Shown here: one piece after another, positions 25,156-40,018 of the stretch
How positions within the stretch are numbered: position 1 is the first letter of the stretch
How the letters are laid out: every line of letters begins with the position of its first letter
From: Ignavibacteria bacterium
Lineage (GTDB): Bacteria; Bacteroidota; Ignavibacteria; Ignavibacteriales; Ignavibacteriaceae
Reading direction: 5' to 3'
Assembly (NCBI GenBank): GCA_021286645.1
Contig: JAJTBZ010000056.1
Coordinates: 1-46,056, forward strand
DNA length: 46,056 nt
Translations under genes and position numbers: made by a program
Notes under the pieces: model-generated
Database searches by the model: none
What the model was told of the DNA's origin: nothing
Seen by the model: the letters and a program-made list of their open reading frames with translations, nothing else

Positions 25156-27315
25156 ATGGCAGTGAACAATCTAAAAAATCCCCTCCCTCTCAAATGGTTA
25201 GTGATAATAACCTCAATTATTATATATATTGTAGCACCAACAATATCTGCTCAAACGAAAGAAGATTGCTTAACCTGCCATAGCGATAATACTTTAACAA
25301 TGGAGAAGAAAGGGAAGCAGGTTTCCCTTTTCGCCGATGATAAAGTGCTTTCAGCTTCTGCTCACCGAAAATTACAGTGCACCGCCTGCCATACAGGTTT
25401 CGATGCCGAGAATGTGCCGCATAAAGAAAACATTCAACCGATTAACTGCCTTACTTGTCATAAAAATGCACCGGTTAAACACTTATTTCACCCACAAATG
25501 TTCAAGAATGCCGGCAAAGATGGCCGCGATGTGAACTGTAAAGGCTGTCATGGTACGCACGATGTTAAAAATGTCCGCCATTCGGCCTCAACAGGTGATG
25601 GAACCGCCTGTGCACAGTGTCATAATCAGCAGTCTGCCAGGTATTCTAATTCAGCTCATGCCGCCGCGAGAGAAAATGGAATTAAAGATGCTCCTGCCTG
25701 TATTAACTGCCATAAAGAACAGGTCAGTTTTAAGAGTTTTCAACAGGATACGGTAAAAGCAAAATTAGCACAGGAAAAGTTATGCCTGAGCTGTCATTTA
25801 AATTCACCGGAAGTACGTGAACGCTTTTCATTTACCCGGTCATTCATTGATGCTTTTGAAAATAGCGTTCACGGCCAGGCCCTGAGAAAAGGCAACACGA
25901 AAGCCCCGGGCTGCCCCGATTGCCATGATGCACACATGGTACAGTCAAAAATGGATAGATCTTCCAGGATTTTCAAAGCTAACATTCCGCAGACCTGCGC
26001 GAAATGCCATCCGAAGATAGCAGCTGAATATAATGAAAGTATTCACGGTGCCGCGATAAAAAAAGGAAATTTTGACAGCCCTGTATGTACCGATTGCCAC
26101 GGCGAACATAATATTTTACGGCATAATGACCCCAATTCACCTGTTTCTTATAAAAACGTATCGGAAAAAGTTTGCGCACAGTGCCATTCATCGGTTAAGT
26201 TATCGCAGAAATATGGAATAGCTTCAGACAGAATTAGTACATTTAAGGATTCCTACCACGGGCTGGCTCTAAAAGGCGGCTCGGCAGCAGTTGCAAACTG
26301 TGGCAGCTGCCATGGTGTGCATAATATTAAGTCATCATCGGATTCCTCTTCAACGGTATTCAAGGGCAATCTGGCAAAAACATGCGGTAAATGCCATCCC
26401 GGTGCGAACAGCAATTTTGCAGTTGGTAAAATCCATGTGCAAATAACAGAAAAAGAAGAGCCTCTCCTCTATTGGATTTCAAACAGCTACATAATCCTCA
26501 TTTTCCTTACACTTGGTGGTATGTTCCTGCATAATCTGCTGGACTTTATCAAAAAAGCCAAGATAAGAAAAATGAAACAGCGCGGTTTGATTGCGCATGA
26601 ACAACATGGACATAAACTCTATCTGCGTATGACCCTTGCTGAACGAATTCAGCACTTTTTATTGCTCAGCAGTTTCTTCACTCTGGTCATAACCGGATTC
26701 ATGCTCCGTTTCCCCGATGCATGGTGGGTACGCCATATTAGAGAATTTAGTGAAAGCGCTTTTGTTTTGCGCAGCATCCTCCACCGTGTTGCGGCAGTTG
26801 TTATGGTTTCTGCAAGTTTATTTCATATGTGGTACCTGGCTGCTACAAAACGTGGTCGTCAGTTATTTATTGACCTTTTACCACGATTAAAAGATGCAAC
26901 AGATGCAATTGGCGTATTAAAGTTTAATATCGGATTATCAAATGAAAAACCAAAATTAGATCGTTTCAGTTATGTAGAAAAAGCTGAATACTGGGCGCTG
27001 ATTTGGGGTACGTTTGTTATGACCGCAACCGGTATTGCAATGTGGTTCGATAATACTTTTATTGGGATGTTTACAAAACTCGGATGGGATGTAGCCCGCA
27101 CAGTTCACTACTATGAAGCCTGGCTGGCATTTTTATCCATTCTTATCTGGCATTTTTACTTTGTTTTGTTTAACCCGGATATTTATCCCATGAGTCTCGC
27201 GTGGATCAAAGGAACAATTACTGAAGAGGAAATGGCCGAAGAGCATCCTCTGGAATTAGAACGAATCAAAAAACAGCAGAGCAGCCGAGAAGAGGGCGAA
27301 AAAGAACATAAATAA
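25156..27315 (+). CDS. 13-haem cytochrome c fused to a cytochrome b membrane domain (CbcL-like)
   Basis: 719-residue quinol-to-multihaem fusion. After a signal anchor (about 12-32), residues 35-420 carry thirteen CXXCH sites, from CLTCH to CGKCHPGAN. A membrane helix (about 438-458) follows, then a HydC/FdnI-type cytochrome b domain (about 490-690) with helix histidines in RIQHFLLL, ILHRVAA, LFHMWYL, VHYYEAW and IWHFYF, enough for two b haems. Geobacter CbcL has the same c-plus-b plan with fewer c haems and oxidises menaquinol for metal reduction. The C-terminal tail is rich in Glu and Lys. No Shine-Dalgarno is seen. A paralogous but split version is encoded directly downstream. Confidence 0.9.
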   Translation: MAVNNLKNPLPLKWLVIITSIIIYIVAPTISAQTKEDCLTCHSDNTLTMEKKGKQVSLFADDKVLSASAHRKLQCTACHTGFDAENVPHKENIQPINCLTCHKNAPVKHLFHPQMFKNAGKDGRDVNCKGCHGTHDVKNVRHSASTGDGTACAQCHNQQSARYSNSAHAAARENGIKDAPACINCHKEQVSFKSFQQDTVKAKLAQEKLCLSCHLNSPEVRERFSFTRSFIDAFENSVHGQALRKGNTKAPGCPDCHDAHMVQSKMDRSSRIFKANIPQTCAKCHPKIAAEYNESIHGAAIKKGNFDSPVCTDCHGEHNILRHNDPNSPVSYKNVSEKVCAQCHSSVKLSQKYGIASDRISTFKDSYHGLALKGGSAAVANCGSCHGVHNIKSSSDSSSTVFKGNLAKTCGKCHPGANSNFAVGKIHVQITEKEEPLLYWISNSYIILIFLTLGGMFLHNLLDFIKKAKIRKMKQRGLIAHEQHGHKLYLRMTLAERIQHFLLLSSFFTLVITGFMLRFPDAWWVRHIREFSESAFVLRSILHRVAAVVMVSASLFHMWYLAATKRGRQLFIDLLPRLKDATDAIGVLKFNIGLSNEKPKLDRFSYVEKAEYWALIWGTFVMTATGIAMWFDNTFIGMFTKLGWDVARTVHYYEAWLAFLSILIWHFYFVLFNPDIYPMSLAWIKGTITEEEMAEEHPLELERIKKQQSSREEGEKEHK

Positions 27316-27340
27316 AATAACCCAATTTACTTATGGAATT

Positions 27341-27368
27341 CAGGCAGGGAGTACATCTCACCTGCCTG
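27341..27368 (+). terminator. Hairpin after the fused cytochrome gene
   Basis: Perfect eight-base stem (27341-27348 with 27361-27368) with a 12-base loop, 25 bases past the stop. The T run behind it is broken, so it may only partly terminate or may mark a processing point within the cluster. Confidence 0.5.
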
Positions 27369-27486
27369 ATTCTGTTTTCTGCGGGTATGTTCCGGCTGCT
27401 ATAATCAAATAAATATTCTGGTTTTTAAAGGATATTATTTCTATTTTCCCGAAAGCCAGTAAAGTGTACTCTCAATTAGTTTAAGT

Positions 27487-27513
27487 TTCCCGGTAGAATG
27501 CAATTACCGGGAA
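27487..27513 (+). promoter_or_regulatory. Perfect inverted repeat ahead of the 19-haem cytochrome gene
   Basis: Nine-base perfect inverted repeat TTCCCGGTA/TACCGGGAA (27487-27495 with 27505-27513) with a nine-base spacer, ending 19 bases before the ATG at 27533. There is no T run, so it is not a terminator. It could be an operator or an mRNA hairpin controlling translation. Confidence 0.5.
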
Positions 27514-27532
27514 TAAAAGAAAGTGAGACTAT

Positions 27533-29512
27533 ATGAGGCGGTTACTATTTATTCTCTTTCTGATTCTCACATACGCAACCGGGCATTCACAGGATAACTC
27601 TGACTGCCTTGCCTGCCATGAGGATAAAACTGCAAAAACTACAAAAGACGGCAAGACCATTTCGCTTTTTGTTGAACAGAAAAGGCTTTCTGCTTCAGTT
27701 CATGCAAAACAGAAATGCATAGATTGCCACGTGGATCTCAAAGGTTCCGATTTTCCTCATACAGAAAACCCAAAACCGGCGCAGTGTCTAAGCTGCCACC
27801 CTGATGCGGTAAAACAGTATTCAGAAAGCCTTCATGGCAGGGCCAAGGCTAAAGGTGACCCGTTAGCTCCAACCTGCAAAGATTGCCATGGCAACCATGA
27901 TATCCTAAAGAAAAAAGATATTCACTCTGCAACCTTCCCCCTAAAAGTACCATTCCTTTGTGGAAAGTGCCACAAAGAAGGGTCCCCTGTGCAATTACAG
28001 AGGAACATCCCTCAATCACATATTTTCGAAAATTATTCAGAAAGTATTCATGGTGAAGGTTTACTAAAAAAAGGTCTCACGGTAGCCGCAACATGTGCTT
28101 CATGCCATACTCCTCATTTAGTTTTGCCTCATACCGATCCCCGATCGAGTATTGCACGGAAAAATATTGCTGCAACCTGTACACAGTGTCACATGGGTAT
28201 CGAAAACGTTCATCGGAAAATTATTAAAGGCGAACTTTGGGAAAAAGAAGCACATGTGCTGCCTGCCTGCGTCGATTGTCATCAGCCACATAAGGCACGA
28301 AAAGTATTCTATGACCAAGGCATGGCTGACAGCGATTGTATGAAATGTCATTCGAAATCCATTAAATCCTCCCGGGATGGCCATGTAATCCAGGTTGACC
28401 AGTCGGAATTGAAAGATTCACGTCATGCCAAAGTGGCTTGCAGCCAATGCCATGCAGCTGTTAATCCTTCAAAGGTGCGCCCATGCGAGTCAATTACTAA
28501 AAATGTTGATTGCGCTTCCTGCCATGCAGCCGTAGGCGAAGAATACAAAATGAGTACGCATGGTAAATTATTCGCTAAAAATGATAAAAACGCTCCCTTC
28601 TGCGCCGAGTGTCACGGGACCCATCATATTATGGGCAAAAAAGATTCGCGTTCGCCTATTTTCCCGACAAATATTCCAATATTATGCGCTCAATGCCACG
28701 AGAAGGATCAACCTGCCGCCCGCAGAATTCGGTATAACGATGCCAAGCTTATTGAACATTACTCTGAAAGTATTCATGGAAAAGGCCTATTGAAAAGCGG
28801 GCTGACTGTTACAGCAACCTGCACCGACTGCCATTCATCGCATAGAGAATTGCCTGCAAGTGATCCGAATTCGAGTATTAATCCGCAAAACATTGCAACC
28901 ACATGCGGCAATTGCCATAGTGGAATAAAAGAAAAATTCATGAAGAGCGTTCACTCTCCGGATATAACAAAGACAACAAAGCAATTACCGATATGCAATG
29001 ATTGTCACTCATCTCATCTAATTAAGAGAACAGATCAGAATGAATTTAAATTAGGTGTAATGACCACCTGTGGTAAGTGCCATGAAGAAATTACAAAAAC
29101 CTATTTTGAAACTTATCATGGTAAAGTTTCGCAGTTGGGGTATACGAAAACTGCAAAGTGTTATGACTGTCATGGTTCACATGAGATTTTACCGGTGAAT
29201 AATCCCGCTTCATTGTTGAGCAGGCAAAATGTTGTGAAGACCTGTCAGAAATGCCATCCGGGAGCAAATCGTCGATTTGCCGGATATTTAACTCATGCCA
29301 CACATCATGACCCGCAAAAATACCCCTGGTTATTTTTTGTATTCTGGGGTATGACTATACTTCTGGTAGGAACATTTATTGTAGCTGGAACCCACACACT
29401 GCTCTGGCTGCCACGCTCGCTGCAATGGAAAAAGCAATTACGCGAAATGGAAGCTAAAGCCGAGGAAGAAGAAAAAAACAATGAAAATACCAACGATACG
29501 GGAAAGGAATAG
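27533..29512 (+). CDS. 19-haem cytochrome c with C-terminal membrane anchor
   Basis: 659-residue exported multihaem cytochrome: signal peptide (about 1-19), nineteen CXXCH sites between residue 25 and about 570, then one membrane helix (about 600-622) and an acidic, Glu-rich tail that should face the cytoplasm. The first 90 residues and the last haem segment (CQKCHPGANRRFA) match the fused cytochrome upstream, so they are paralogues. Two internal blocks of about 120 residues (about 95-215 and 340-465) repeat each other, each with YSESIHG-type segments. With the next gene, three bases away, it probably forms a c-plus-b complex equivalent to the fused protein. A hairpin precedes its start. Confidence 0.9.
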   Translation: MRRLLFILFLILTYATGHSQDNSDCLACHEDKTAKTTKDGKTISLFVEQKRLSASVHAKQKCIDCHVDLKGSDFPHTENPKPAQCLSCHPDAVKQYSESLHGRAKAKGDPLAPTCKDCHGNHDILKKKDIHSATFPLKVPFLCGKCHKEGSPVQLQRNIPQSHIFENYSESIHGEGLLKKGLTVAATCASCHTPHLVLPHTDPRSSIARKNIAATCTQCHMGIENVHRKIIKGELWEKEAHVLPACVDCHQPHKARKVFYDQGMADSDCMKCHSKSIKSSRDGHVIQVDQSELKDSRHAKVACSQCHAAVNPSKVRPCESITKNVDCASCHAAVGEEYKMSTHGKLFAKNDKNAPFCAECHGTHHIMGKKDSRSPIFPTNIPILCAQCHEKDQPAARRIRYNDAKLIEHYSESIHGKGLLKSGLTVTATCTDCHSSHRELPASDPNSSINPQNIATTCGNCHSGIKEKFMKSVHSPDITKTTKQLPICNDCHSSHLIKRTDQNEFKLGVMTTCGKCHEEITKTYFETYHGKVSQLGYTKTAKCYDCHGSHEILPVNNPASLLSRQNVVKTCQKCHPGANRRFAGYLTHATHHDPQKYPWLFFVFWGMTILLVGTFIVAGTHTLLWLPRSLQWKKQLREMEAKAEEEEKNNENTNDTGKE

Positions 29513-36158: not shown

Positions 36159-37070
36159 TTAAAATAATCCTTCAACTGAAAGGTACCTCTCTCCCGTATC
36201 GTAATTGAATGTAAGAATCCTGCTGCCGGCTGGTACTTCGGGAAGCAATTTTGCAACTGCCGCCAATGATGCGCCGGAAGATATGCCAATAAATAATCCC
36301 TCTTCTGTTGCCGCGCGGCGCGTATATTCGAAAGCCTCATCCTTACCAACTTTTATTATGCCGTCAATCAATTCTCTTTGTAAAATTGAAGGAACGAACC
36401 CGGCACCAATTCCTTGTAAAGGATGTGGCGCGGGGCTGCCGCCGCTTAACACGGGCGAGAGTTCCGGCTCTACCGCAAATACTTTCAAGGCGGGGAATTT
36501 TTCTTTTAAAAGATCCGCAACACCGGAAATATGTCCGCCGGTACCAACACCGGTAACCAAATAATCAATGCCCTCGGGGAAATCCGCATAAATTTCAGCA
36601 GCTGTTGTTGCTCGGTGTACAGCGCTATTAGCGAGATTATCAAATTGCATTGGTATCCATACTTTTTCATTCTGTGCTGCAATTTCCCGTGCTTTTTCAA
36701 TTGCTCCCTTCATTCCTTTCTCCCTCGGCGTCAATTCCAGTTTAGCGCCATAGGCAGCCATTAAGCGCCTACGTTCAATAGACATGGACTCCGGCATCAC
36801 CAGAATAAGTTCGTACCCTTTTACTGCTGCTACCATTGCTAAACCAATTCCGGTATTCCCTGAAGTCGGTTCAACAATAATACTATCGGGTTTTAGTACT
36901 CCTTTTTTTTCTGCATCTTCTATCATTGCCAGTGCAATGCGGTCTTTTATACTTCCGCCCGGATTAGATTTTTCGAGTTTCACCCATACTTCGCTGCCAC
37001 CTTGAAATAATTTCTGTAACCGCAAGTGTGGTGTATTTCCTATACCTTCGAGAATCGATTGAATTTTCAT
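36159..37070 (-). CDS. cysK: Cysteine synthase (O-acetylserine sulfhydrylase)
   Basis: PLP enzyme that makes L-cysteine from O-acetylserine and sulfide. The 303-residue protein has the Schiff-base Lys42 in NPGGSIKDR, the substrate loop PTSGNTG at 68-74, the phosphate-binding GTGGH loop near 174, and the C-terminal serine in GISSGAS near 262. Full length, no anomalies. AAGGAG lies four bases before the ATG. The 180 bases upstream encode a Cys-rich leader ORF and an intrinsic terminator with an alternative antiterminator fold, so transcription into cysK is very probably controlled by cysteine supply. Two PLP enzymes of sulfur amino acid metabolism lie divergently. Confidence 0.96.
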
Positions 37071-37107
37071 AATACTCCTTGTATTGTTTGTTTATTGAAT
37101 AATCAGC

Positions 37108-37141
37108 AAAAAAAAAGCCCTTCCTGTAACGGAAGGGCTTT
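37108..37141 (-). terminator. Attenuator terminator in the cysK leader
   Basis: Perfect 11-base stem AAAGCCCTTCC/GGAAGGGCTTT (37141-37131 with 37124-37114 read on the minus strand), six-base loop, then nine T. It lies between the Cys-rich leader ORF (31 bases behind its stop) and the cysK start (about 40 bases ahead), so it stops transcription before cysK unless broken. Confidence 0.9.
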
Positions 37142-37194
37142 AGTAATAAATATAATATATGTAAATACTATTTAGATACAGGCCTCCCGTTCAG
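37124..37194 (-). promoter_or_regulatory. Antiterminator pairing of the cysK attenuator
   Basis: On the minus-strand RNA, CUGAACGGGAGG (37194-37183, leader codons 19-23) can pair with CCUUCCGUUACAG (37136-37124): 12 pairs, one of them G-U, with one bulged A. This uses six bases of the terminator's 5' arm, its loop and the first base of its 3' arm, so the two folds exclude each other. A small stem GACU/AGUC (37205-37202 with 37197-37194) sits between the Cys codons and the antiterminator arm. Confidence 0.7.
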
Positions 37195-37249
37195 ACTGGC
37201 AAGTCTTACAACAGCAACAACAATTTGCCATAAAGTGAGCAGGGGTCAT
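37172..37249 (-). CDS. Cys-rich leader peptide of cysK
   Basis: A 25-codon ORF. It starts at ATG 37249 after AAGGA at nine bases spacing and ends with TAA at 37172. Cysteines are residues 10-14 (five in a row, codons TGT TGT TGC TGT TGT), 17 and 24: seven in 25. There is no signal or domain. The position, the Cys run and the downstream terminator/antiterminator pair fit a ribosome-stalling leader peptide: scarce Cys-tRNA would stall the ribosome on the Cys codons, leave 37194-37183 free, form the antiterminator and allow cysK transcription. With ample cysteine the ribosome reaches the stop codon, covers that arm, and the terminator forms. A metal-binding microprotein is an alternative reading but does not explain the RNA pairing. 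Confidence 0.8.
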   Translation of the reverse strand: MTPAHFMANCCCCCKTCQSEREACI

Positions 37250-37389
37250 TATTTTTTATCCTTATTTCTTGGTTTACATTAATAAAATAAATTATTTTAC
37301 GCAAAAATCAAATTTAAATTGATTTAATAATGGAACATAATAACTTCCAATTTGGTTCCACATATAAATAGAAATCATGCGGCTATACC
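37250..37389. promoter_or_regulatory. Divergent promoter region, cysK leader / PLP gene
   Basis: AT-rich spacer between the divergent cysK leader and PLP gene. On the minus strand TAAATTTG (37316-37309) matches the TAnnTTTG -7 consensus exactly and would start the leader transcript about 50 bases before the leader ATG; no good -33 TTG is seen at the usual distance. No equally clear plus-strand promoter is visible. Confidence 0.45.
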
Positions 37390-38535
37390 ATGCACTTACA
37401 AACACTTTTATCGGGACATATACATAATCCTGAATTACCGGACCCATTTGGGGCCACACATTTTCCTATATATCAATCGGCTACATTCGATCTAAAGAAG
37501 CAGGAAAGCGACTCGCCTTTCGACTATTCCCGCACCTCAAACCCGACACGCGCGGCACTTGAAAACATCCTGGCAGTCGCAGAACAGGGTTGCGGTGCTG
37601 TATGCACCAATACGGGCCTTTCAGCTATTGCTCTGGTTCTTGAATCAATTATTGCCAGCGGAGACAGCATCCTTACAGATTTTGATCTATATGGAGGAAG
37701 CAATCGTTTATTAGGAGTACTTTCTTCCCGCTATAATGTTTCAATTATTCGTGCAGATTTAAGCGATGCAGAAAAAGTGCAAAGTATATTACGAGATAAA
37801 AAAATCTCTATTGTGTTATGCGAGTCGCCAACCAATCCGGGACTAAAAATAATTGATATACAGGCCCTTGCTTCACTGTGTCACCAATACGGAACTCTTC
37901 TTGCAGTGGATAACAGCCTTGCTACTTTTGCTTCGCAAAAGCCACTTAACCTGGGGGCCGATTTCAGCATTCTTTCAACTACAAAATATGTTTCCGGGCA
38001 CGGGGCTACAGTTGCAGGCGCGGCAATAGCGAAACTGCCTAAACATCTGGAAGCACTTCGTTTTTACGCGAACGCCCAGGGACGCACACAAGCGCCCATG
38101 GAAGCCTTTTTGGTTTCACTGGGCCTGCCAACCCTTGAGTTACGGATGAAGGCACAGGAGGCTTCCGCGAGCCAAATAGCAGACTTTTTAGCAACACTGC
38201 CAGCTGTTCACAATTTGCGGTTCCCATTTTCGAATTTGCACCCTCAATCAGCTCTGGCAAAACGACAAATGAAAATTTGTCCTTCCGTCATTACATTTGA
38301 GCTGGAGTCGGCTGAAAAAGCCGGCAACTTTGTTTCGCGCACAAAATTATTTGGAGAGAAAGTTTCTTTTGGCAATGCAGATTCTCGTATTGAACAACCA
38401 TCAAAACTCAGCCACGCATCAATGAATAAAGAGCAACTTAGCCAGGCAGGTATTTCGCAAGCCACAATACGACTGGCAATTGGTTTGGAACACCCGGATG
38501 ATTTGCAGGAGGATATCGCGAATGCACTTAAATAA
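37390..38535 (+). CDS. Cys/Met metabolism PLP-dependent enzyme (trans-sulfuration type)
   Basis: 381-residue fold-type I PLP enzyme of the cystathionine gamma-synthase / beta-lyase / gamma-lyase / O-acylhomoserine sulfhydrylase family. It has YSRTSNPTRAALE near 46-58, the aromatic stacking Tyr101 in DLYGGSNRL, Asp174 in LLAVDNSLAT, and Schiff-base Lys199 in STTKYVSGHGA. Which reaction it catalyses cannot be decided from sequence alone. It is divergent from cysK and overlaps the next PLP gene, so a role in the cysteine-homocysteine-methionine branch is likely. No Shine-Dalgarno precedes the ATG. Confidence 0.9.
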   Translation: MHLQTLLSGHIHNPELPDPFGATHFPIYQSATFDLKKQESDSPFDYSRTSNPTRAALENILAVAEQGCGAVCTNTGLSAIALVLESIIASGDSILTDFDLYGGSNRLLGVLSSRYNVSIIRADLSDAEKVQSILRDKKISIVLCESPTNPGLKIIDIQALASLCHQYGTLLAVDNSLATFASQKPLNLGADFSILSTTKYVSGHGATVAGAAIAKLPKHLEALRFYANAQGRTQAPMEAFLVSLGLPTLELRMKAQEASASQIADFLATLPAVHNLRFPFSNLHPQSALAKRQMKICPSVITFELESAEKAGNFVSRTKLFGEKVSFGNADSRIEQPSKLSHASMNKEQLSQAGISQATIRLAIGLEHPDDLQEDIANALK

Positions 38536-40018
38536 TAGCTCTCTACCTTTTACTTTACAGCATATCCCTTGCGGGCAGGCAGTACCTCCGGGGAACCCTC
38601 ATGCAATAACAGTTTCATTACCCACACTCAGCGATGTAATTGGATACGAAGAGAAGCACCCTCATATAATGCGTAATTTACAGTCCGGGTACCCTCGTTT
38701 TTTTACGAATGGGTTGGTTAGCAGGGCAACAGAAGTACTCAGCAGTCAGTTGAATTTGCAGCCGAACCTCTGTTTTGTACCAGTTTCATCTCGAACTGCC
38801 TTTTTCGGTATATCACGTATACTTTCTGGTACTGAATATCAAATTATTGAGGGTGAATTTCCCGGAATTATCATCCGCAACGACAGCCCCAATTTTCAAC
38901 GTCTAAAAACATATTTACAAAATACGGGATTTATTCCTTCTTCCAGACAGGCAGAAGATTTCCTTATTAAGACAGGCGAACTTGAAATACCATATCCGGA
39001 AGAACGCGCTCCGTTGTATTCAGCCGAAAAAACAATTATAGCACAATTGGCAGAAGCATACTCGGTTACTTTTCCTGACTCTATATTATTGGCATGTAAC
39101 GGGATGAACGCTATACAGGCTGTAGTGCAAGCAATTACCAATGAATTGTGTAGTAAGCAAAAGAAAAAAATACTTCAATTCGGTTGGCTTTATCTCGATA
39201 CAATGGCACTACTGCATAATACCGATAATTGTACAACAATCATAAATTGCCAGGACTTTGAAGAAATCGAAAAGTATATTACCGGCAATTATCAATCGAT
39301 AGCGGCTGTAGTTACCGAGCTGCCAACAAACCCGTTGTTGCAGGTACCGGATATTCCCCGACTTTCAAAAATTTTACGACAATATGATATACCCCTGATA
39401 GTTGATAGCAGTTGTGGAACAGGCTGGTGCTTTAATTTGTCTCCATACGCGGATATAATAATAGAAAGCCTTACAAAATTTGCTTGCGGGCATGCAGATT
39501 CAATGATGGGAGCAATAGTATTTCCCGAGAATTCATTAGTGTTTTCGCTGCGTAAAAAAGTTAGGCAATTTGTTTCCGCGCCTCATTTTTCTGATGTTCA
39601 GCGGGTTGCCCATACAATACAGTCATATAAGCAAAGAGTTATGATTAGCAGCCAAACCGCCAACAATTTCATTGAATATTGCAACAGTATACCAGGCATT
39701 GCAAAAGTTTTCTACGCTGATATTCGCGGCATTTATGATAAAAGCTTCATGAAATATACTCCACCGATCTGTAGTGTGGTTTTCCAAAAACCTCTCGCGC
39801 AGGTGTATGAGAGGCTGCATATTGTAAAGGGGCCCAGTTTTGGAACACAATTTACTTTGGGTATGGCTTACGTTTACCTTGCACATTATGATTTATTACA
39901 AACACCAGCCGGGCGTACACGCTTAAATGAAGCGGGGCTTGATGAAGGATTGCTTCGCGTTTCCATTGGGACAGAACCAATTGATGATTTGGTGCGTGTA
40001 TTCAACGCAGCTTTGTAA
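38522..40018 (+). CDS. Second, longer Cys/Met-type PLP enzyme (STR2-like)
   Basis: 498-residue fold-type I PLP enzyme related to, but distant from, the gene before it. Lys319 in IIESLTKFACGHADSMMGA lines up with the Schiff-base Lys of the Cys/Met family; VDSSCGTGW near 294 holds the cofactor Asp, and ELPTNPLLQVPDI matches the ESPTNP segment. The extra N-terminal ~150 residues (including SGYPRFFTN) recall the long fungal-type cystathionine gamma-synthases. The start is ATG 38522, inside the previous gene: AGGAGG lies nine bases upstream and the two genes overlap by 14 bases, giving tight translational coupling. The two proteins may form a hetero-oligomer or do consecutive steps. Confidence 0.8.
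   Translation: MHLNNSSLPFTLQHIPCGQAVPPGNPHAITVSLPTLSDVIGYEEKHPHIMRNLQSGYPRFFTNGLVSRATEVLSSQLNLQPNLCFVPVSSRTAFFGISRILSGTEYQIIEGEFPGIIIRNDSPNFQRLKTYLQNTGFIPSSRQAEDFLIKTGELEIPYPEERAPLYSAEKTIIAQLAEAYSVTFPDSILLACNGMNAIQAVVQAITNELCSKQKKKILQFGWLYLDTMALLHNTDNCTTIINCQDFEEIEKYITGNYQSIAAVVTELPTNPLLQVPDIPRLSKILRQYDIPLIVDSSCGTGWCFNLSPYADIIIESLTKFACGHADSMMGAIVFPENSLVFSLRKKVRQFVSAPHFSDVQRVAHTIQSYKQRVMISSQTANNFIEYCNSIPGIAKVFYADIRGIYDKSFMKYTPPICSVVFQKPLAQVYERLHIVKGPSFGTQFTLGMAYVYLAHYDLLQTPAGRTRLNEAGLDEGLLRVSIGTEPIDDLVRVFNAAL

Follow-up and report, generated by a model that had tools for sequence, protein, structure and literature searches.

The window analysed here, a stretch of 46,056 nucleotides from an Ignavibacteria bacterium (contig JAJTBZ010000056.1, GenBank assembly GCA_021286645.1), contains on its reverse strand a cysK gene (36159..37070) whose 303-aa product, with a PF00291 domain, was identified by profile search as cysteine synthase A (400.2 bits against TIGR01139, cut-off 350.95). 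A preliminary description of the region 5' of this gene had proposed a cysteine attenuator, made up of a leader peptide and a terminator/antiterminator pair, with cysK as the controlled gene. All parts of such an element can be read from the sequence, on the same strand as cysK.

The leader open reading frame (ORF; 37172..37249) has 25 codons (MTPAHFMANCCCCCKTCQSEREACI), and counterparts with Cys runs are found before cysK or cysE in relatives. As initially described, seven of its codons specify Cys and five of these are adjacent (codons 10-14, TGT TGT TGC TGT TGT; 37208..37222), constituting the proposed stall site. The Shine-Dalgarno motif previously noticed corresponds to AAGGA (37259..37263), 9 nt 5' of the leader ATG. 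Further upstream lies a weak sigma-70-like promoter candidate (37291..37318), composed of TTTAAA and AATAAT with 16 nt between them and agreeing with the consensus at 9 of 12 positions. The ribosome-binding site of cysK itself, AAGGAG (37075..37080), is located 3' of the terminator and outside the switch.

Beyond the leader stop codon, and 30 rather than the earlier 31 bases away from it, folding reveals an intrinsic terminator hairpin with an 11-bp stem, as claimed, and a 6-nt loop (37114..37141; segments 3 and 4). Its energy is -19.0 kcal/mol (z -6.4), a value equalled by none of 200 shuffles. The nine Ts attributed to its tail are present (37108..37116) but are a tail only in part, given that three of them also belong to the stem. 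The 5' arm and loop of this hairpin (37124..37141; segment 3) have an alternative partner in the antiterminator arm formed by leader codons 19-23 (37183..37194; segment 2). The duplex between 37194-37183 and 37136-37124 comprises the 12 pairs formerly counted, with one bulged A and an energy of -15.7 kcal/mol, and its assignment is further supported by covariation (see below). A fourth element, absent from the preliminary description, is a protector arm inside the leader (37235..37246; segment 1): when the leader folds on its own, the structure of predicted minimum energy has ACCCCTGCTCAC (37246-37235) base-paired to the antiterminator arm. For an RNA ending at the terminator loop, the antiterminator is predicted to be the fold of lowest energy (-19.6 kcal/mol), and once the terminator 3' arm is included the terminator becomes the favoured predicted fold. 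On the far side of the leader, the gene at 37390-38535 (plus strand) is divergent from cysK; thus, the terminator is usable solely by transcripts coming from the leader.

Recurrence and co-variation in relatives

To place the element in a comparative setting, we searched cysK in 59 relatives, 54 of which gave a match, and in 391 genomes from the class, of which 92 did so at E <= 1e-90, and took 60 regions at matches from both searches plus at least 80 named loci from the genome collection. The set of 191 loci was reduced to 171 with an identity of at least 60% and a matched start, to 165 upon removal of duplicates and finally to 158, seven having less than 250 nt upstream. These 250 nt were examined ahead of the first gene of the operon, taken as cysK or the ORF directly before it, which is usually cysE-like. 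The identity of cysE was confirmed by profile at L007 only, as an EpsC-type serine O-acetyltransferase (NF041874, 161 bits, cut-off 150; under the cut-off for TIGR01172), and elsewhere "cysE" is assigned from position, length and visible likeness.

An ATG-initiated ORF of 7-70 codons with a CCC run precedes 48 of the 158 cysK or cysE-cysK operons. The reverse strand of the same 158 upstream regions holds none, 20 shuffled sets yield a mean of 0.2 +- 0.4 (maximum 1), and control tiles of the same loci 5 in 2468. Among the six residues for which shuffles were made, Leu runs rank next, with 12 occurrences against a shuffle mean of 5.5 and a maximum of 11. Furthermore, TGT and TGC are mixed in 37 of 57 Cys runs across relatives, indicating that the residue and not a DNA repeat has been kept. 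Comparison of the cysK upstream regions therefore supports the interpretation first given to this locus. Both a Cys-run ORF and a terminator occur in a genome of the same genus (L004, with CCCC), in members of the same family (L005, L014, L019, L050 and L057) and in more distant genomes, while some orthologues within the family have no such combination.

We call design I the arrangement found in the window, defined by a CCC run and a terminator of -10 kcal/mol or lower lying 45-95 nt beyond the run. It is present in 28 elements, including the same-genus L004, other genomes of the family, Prolixibacteraceae, Flavobacterium luminosum and Pyxidicoccus fallax, the last of which has a poor T tract. 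From the last codon of the Cys run to the terminator the median distance is 67.5 nt (range 52-83), even though the leader stop codon sits 9-17 codons beyond the run; this tight spacing is due in part to the 45-95 nt search filter.

Over the 28 elements as a group, antiterminator pairing with the own partner (-13.3 kcal/mol) is stronger than with swapped ones (-10.2), a difference matched in 0 of 20,000 permutations, in statistics that treat loci without correction for relatedness. Since swapped-partner comparisons could mirror shared base composition, we repeated them with shuffles of each pair, and the effect persists (own z -2.25, swaps -1.0; 0 of 20,000). The same is observed in 13 further elements (own -14.8, swapped -11.1 kcal/mol; mean z -2.5; 0 of 20,000), a set that is not fully independent, L256, L283, L284 and L302 being alike, and that includes L266, whose gene is unassigned. 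Covarying letters are readily seen by comparing AACGGG with CCCGTT in L004, GAGGTGAA with TTCACCTC in L101, and TATTACCA with TGGTAATA in L165. The terminator stem behaves similarly: in 17 aligned elements, 8 cells are altered on both sides, compared with 2.3 in shuffles. Covariation in both stems, put forward earlier as a check on the attenuator, is thus borne out.

The Pyxidicoccus fallax locus (L122) deserves separate mention. In this myxobacterium, cysK is 73% identical to that of the window and has upstream of it a CCCCC leader and a hairpin that resembles a terminator, though its T tract is poor. This degree of identity, together with the leader and hairpin, suggests that cysK may have been acquired along with the switch by transfer.

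We next built on design I a covariance model, R1, and ran it on 197 genomes of the class. Besides the window, 29 loci were recovered in relatives, many of them plain terminators; eight have a Cys leader, two being cysK elements already found (L247 and L249) and the others L248, L252, L256, L264, L266 and L267. In the genome of the window itself, the only strong match is the cysK element (73.6 bits, followed by 34.3). Two of the 25 R1 loci in this genome are the window itself, and the remaining 23 were scanned. L227, whose QCC frame is short and whose hairpin is weak (-8.5), was rejected, as was a single CCSC frame without terminator common to L228, L230 and L244. Four consecutive TGY codons occur at 57 places in the genome; among the 30 of these with loci scanned, the window alone pairs a Cys-run ORF with a 3' terminator. 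Of the other frames, L206 (CCCC, no terminator) and L215 (a TTG-start CCCC frame whose stop is overlapped by a hairpin) were not counted, and the MCCCCCC frame of L192 was discarded, being out of frame inside an HlyD-like gene. Neither a cysH-like match at E <= 1e-30 nor a SATase_N match is found in this genome.

Two features of the wider neighbourhood may also be recorded. Divergent to cysK, at 37390-40018 (plus strand), are two PLP enzymes of the Cys/Met metabolism family, with ORFs that overlap as listed; the second scores 295 bits with the BesB model, far under the cut-off of 800. Some kilobases from cysK, at 25156-29512 (plus strand), are two cytochrome c-like CxxCH proteins (CLTCH and CLACH, near the N-terminus).

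Proposed mechanism and its alternatives

Taken together, these observations lead us to consider it very probable that the region operates as a four-segment, ribosome-mediated and cysteine-responsive transcription attenuator of cysK. Transcription would begin shortly 5' of the leader ORF, with a ribosome trailing the RNA polymerase. When Cys-tRNA is ample, the ribosome would pass the five Cys codons, reach the stop codon and cover part of the antiterminator arm, or outrun it, so that the terminator forms and the transcript stops near 37108, upstream of cysK. When Cys-tRNA is scarce, the ribosome would halt at codons 10-14 and break the protector hairpin, while the RNA from 37194 onwards stays free; 37194-37183 could then pair with 37136-37124 as soon as the latter is made, and the polymerase would continue into cysK. 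If the leader is left untranslated, the protector hairpin is expected to promote termination. The stall geometry follows the generally accepted footprint of a ribosome. From this arrangement we infer where transcription starts, that the ribosome stalls, that transcripts terminate in vivo and that the switch responds to cysteine.

Several observations weigh against this reading. In the full RNA the terminator (-19.0) beats the antiterminator (-15.7), which requires the switch to work by kinetics, like that of trp. The window leader's promoter is weak by consensus, and the promoters of all 28 design I leaders, taken jointly, barely exceed shuffles (8.0 versus 7.3). In 5 of the 28 elements (L005, L073, L135, L155 and L162) own pairing falls below the mean swap, and relative to shuffles z is near zero in L073 (-0.5), L095 (-0.6), L144 (-0.7) and L155 (-0.6); L264 is without antiterminator signal. 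Set-wide support for the protector hairpin is moderate (27 elements, own z -0.92, swapped 0.05, p 0.007). The Cys leaders of L266 and L267 precede genes without assignment to sulfur metabolism. Finally, 115 of the 165 orthologues match neither design I nor the second design described below (53 of 91 in the class sample and 62 of 74 among the named loci listed). Six of these hold weaker Cys-rich leaders with terminators (L041, L101, L146, L154, L164 and L184), and CCC frames are present in L082, L083, L086 and L090, which are metY-cysK operons, as well as in L117, L148, L157 and L171, those of L148 and L171 looking like chance.

Could the Cys-run peptide itself be the product that matters? A CCCCC-K-T-C arrangement could bind metal, a terminator would suit a monocistronic small gene, and cysK has an AAGGAG of its own; the peptide might accordingly be a functional small protein (metal or redox), whose mRNA ends at the hairpin, with cysK expressed from another promoter. 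We nevertheless find this very improbable. Outside the Cys run the peptides are dissimilar, by eye, in sequence, length and Cys spacing, whereas the distance from run to terminator is kept (median 67.5 nt, with the filter mentioned above). Moreover, the co-variation of antiterminator and terminator is needless for a plain terminator, and the Cys runs are linked to cysteine operons. That same linkage is left unexplained if the ORF is incidental and the terminator is governed by a 5' untranslated region sensing a protein or metabolite, be it as a riboswitch, a T-box or the target of an RNA-binding repressor. Such regulators do use terminator/antiterminator pairs in the case of riboswitches, and a SAM riboswitch adjoins a Met/Cys leader in L264. 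In the window, however, no Rfam family reaches threshold, leader, riboswitch and T-box families included, and when 551 bases were rescanned at E <= 1, the 16 matches obtained all stayed well under their cut-offs (the top score being PyrR with 28.7, cut-off 54, and the lowest E value, 0.015, suhB with 23.2, cut-off 41). The RNA from the Cys run to the terminator is also short and, save for the antiterminator, unconserved. We rate this explanation slightly below the small protein.

The last alternative is coincidence, a Cys-rich frame and an unrelated terminator having come together ahead of cysK in one genome. Chance frames of this sort do exist, as L192 illustrates in the same genome, but the 48 CCC-run ORFs before 158 operons in relatives and the antiterminator covariation in 28 and 13 elements make it the least credible of all, to the point of being scarcely tenable. 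The cysteine attenuator thus stands as our preferred explanation.

Other sulfur genes and a second leader design

Cys leaders are not confined to cysK. Among the R1 loci, leaders precede a nitrite/sulfite reductase (L256), DUF2061-cysH (L252) and a sulfate ABC transporter substrate-binding protein (L248; NF008022, 542.7 bits, cut-off 288). We also examined cysH, which is found at E <= 1e-30 in 7 of the 197 class genomes. All seven carry a Cys leader before a sulfate-assimilation gene (L248, L252, L256, L283, L284, L285 and L302), although in several cases the gene it precedes is not cysH, and in G152 it lies on a different contig. Another 17 regions (L286-L302) surround R1 matches lying apart from cysH. 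A Cys leader is present in L302, Met or Met/Cys leaders in L286, L288 and L299, and a CC..C frame in L301; most others are without such a leader. The leaders of the sulfite reductases (L256, L283, L284 and L302) have a peptide stretch in common, LCFREGV or RCFREGV; this stretch encodes the antiterminator, and thus its conservation probably reflects RNA pairing. Separately, a related CCLL frame was noted in L250 and L251, before a gene without assignment.

Methionine codons enter the picture in metY-like genes, where Met or mixed leaders are followed by terminators: MAMRMMMRM in L253, MMMCMM in L257 and MMIMC in L299, with two Met or Met/Cys leaders in a row in both L286 and L288. The metY identity is confirmed in L083 (TIGR01326) and at the family level in L264 (PF01053), and the label metY-like for L253, L257, L286, L288 and L299 denotes a shared N-terminus. 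Antiterminator pairing over ten Met or mixed leaders has a mean z of -3.5 (range -0.9 to -6.4), as exemplified by TGTTTGTGAAGGG with CCCTTCACAAAC in L253. Because these leaders were found with a model that is aware of the terminator, the pairing alone is independent of selection. They are possibly methionine-reading attenuators. In L264 (1402-1725), a SAM riboswitch (RF00162, 87.9 bits) directly adjoins the 3' side of a CMCCMC leader and its terminator, and metY comes next; this disposition might represent a two-input stack. Tandem switches are found in the sulfate gene clusters of L248 (1501-1781), L252 (1501-1741) and L285 (about 817-1078). They consist of a design I-like leader (MMMAMCMCM, MICCNNCMM and CMCMM, respectively) with its terminator and, approximately 25 nt further, a leader of the second design.

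Two observations lie to the side of these leaders. In L083 (893-1030; counterparts in L082 and L086), an RNA of approximately 93 nt is placed between a poly-Cys leader and the terminator, ahead of metY-cysK. It folds at -39.8 kcal/mol (z -4.8), contains GAGGGTTCAAACC, and gave no Rfam match and no tRNA. As it occupies the place taken by the SAM riboswitch in L264, it may be an undescribed riboswitch. L268 and L274, in turn, have Trp-run leaders (WAWWW and WAWFW) with terminators, and the N-terminus encoded downstream resembles, by eye, anthranilate synthase.

The second arrangement, named design II here, differs in the place of the Cys run, which sits at the leader's 3' end. The last Cys pair is 0-7 codons from the stop codon and no terminator is present before the next ORF, the leader usually lying 47-77 nt upstream; with 0-7 codons in design II and 9-18 in design I, the two do not overlap. 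Design II is found in 20 of the 62 class-sample loci with a cysE-like ORF directly before cysK (L006-L010, L020, L024, L033-L035, L038, L039, L043, L045, L052, L061, L063, L071, L072 and L074) and once before a solo cysK (L066). Among orthologous cysE-cysK operons, design I is present in some and design II in others. A terminator upstream of the leader exists in 10 of the 21 loci. By eye it ends a cold-shock-like gene in 7 of 8 loci inspected (the eighth being L061), and for this reason we left it out of the design II element.

How design II might work is suggested by base composition. After its stop codon, the excess of C over G is 0.106 per nt (21 loci, the ambiguous L117, L157 and L178 being excluded) versus 0.008 in 114 control regions (p 1.4e-5). 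A leader pairing that hides the cysE start is unsupported (mean z -0.45, p 0.13), as is RNA structure after the stop codon (mean z about -0.2). Such a C-rich, G-poor and unstructured tract raises the possibility that design II is a Rho-dependent counterpart of design I, in which a ribosome stalled at the leader end would mask a Rho site or otherwise open the next gene. A possible model for such masking is the Rho-dependent tna operon of E. coli with its TnaC leader.

In this context, and from the comparison of these loci, we put forward, with a slight leaning in its favour, that in Ignavibacteria and other Bacteroidota the genes of sulfur amino-acid metabolism are under a family of leader-peptide switches reading Cys, Met or both, deployed as design I, design II or tandems. 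Within such a family, design I would place Cys runs before cysK, cysE-cysK and sulfite reductase, and Met or mixed runs such as MMMAMCMCM, MMCMMM and MAMRMMMRM before metY-like and sulfate genes.

Relation to known attenuators

As in the trp, his, leu, thr and phe attenuators, the window element combines a small ORF, in which codons for the amino acid made by the controlled pathway follow one another, with an intrinsic terminator before the structural gene. The order and overlap of antiterminator and terminator also agree with theirs, as would those of the protector predicted in the window. It would differ from these in sensing cysteine and in its genes and hosts, elements of this kind being located before cysK/cysE and sulfite reductase in Ignavibacteria and further Bacteroidota. 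Nearer in the amino acid concerned are the mycobacterial polycysteine leaderless short ORFs, which Canestrari et al. in 2020 reportedly placed before cysteine and sulfur genes with a proposed response to cysteine. They resemble the window leader in having a Cys-codon run in a short ORF ahead of such genes, and design II is closer to them than design I. Two reports have these ORFs act by translation attenuation (PMC13236596, PMC9094748), and the 2005 proposal of Cys leader peptides in Actinobacteria has them without terminators (PMC1262725). Unlike the latter, the window has an intrinsic terminator and an antiterminator, and the ribosome-binding site of cysK lies outside the hairpins, which would speak against translational control of the mycobacterial kind.

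The earlier suggestion that a cysteine attenuator for cysK is not commonly described in this phylum has to be tempered by uORFC-8-2, a predicted ribosome-mediated attenuator with tandem Cys codons and a terminator before cysS in Rhodobacterales (PMC8632094). uORFC-8-2 belongs to Alphaproteobacteria and to cysteinyl-tRNA synthetase, and its two Cys codons, usually at positions 14-15, are in the first stem. The window element differs in preceding cysK, a gene of cysteine biosynthesis, and in its five Cys codons. Within Bacteroidota, leader attenuation has been suspected before amino-acid operons of Flavobacterium psychrophilum, cysteine not being named in the excerpted text (PMC9723704), and leader-like small ORFs were noted in Bacteroides thetaiotaomicron (PMC7366714). 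A terminator survey of 2010 names no cysteine leader in its excerpted part (PMC2965389). Among the literature matches listed, which include few subscription papers, none reports a Cys attenuator acting on cysK, cysE or sulfite reductase of Bacteroidota or Ignavibacteria, none proposes attenuation at an intrinsic terminator for the biosynthesis of cysteine itself, and none describes how cysteine synthesis is controlled in Ignavibacteria or related Bacteroidota. Thus, while the mechanism is of a known kind, the Cys attenuator family described here appears to be new. It would provide a direct and testable account of the control of cysteine synthesis, along with a recurring set of small leader genes, and, with two designs found before orthologous operons, alternative ways of reading one signal lend themselves to a natural comparison.
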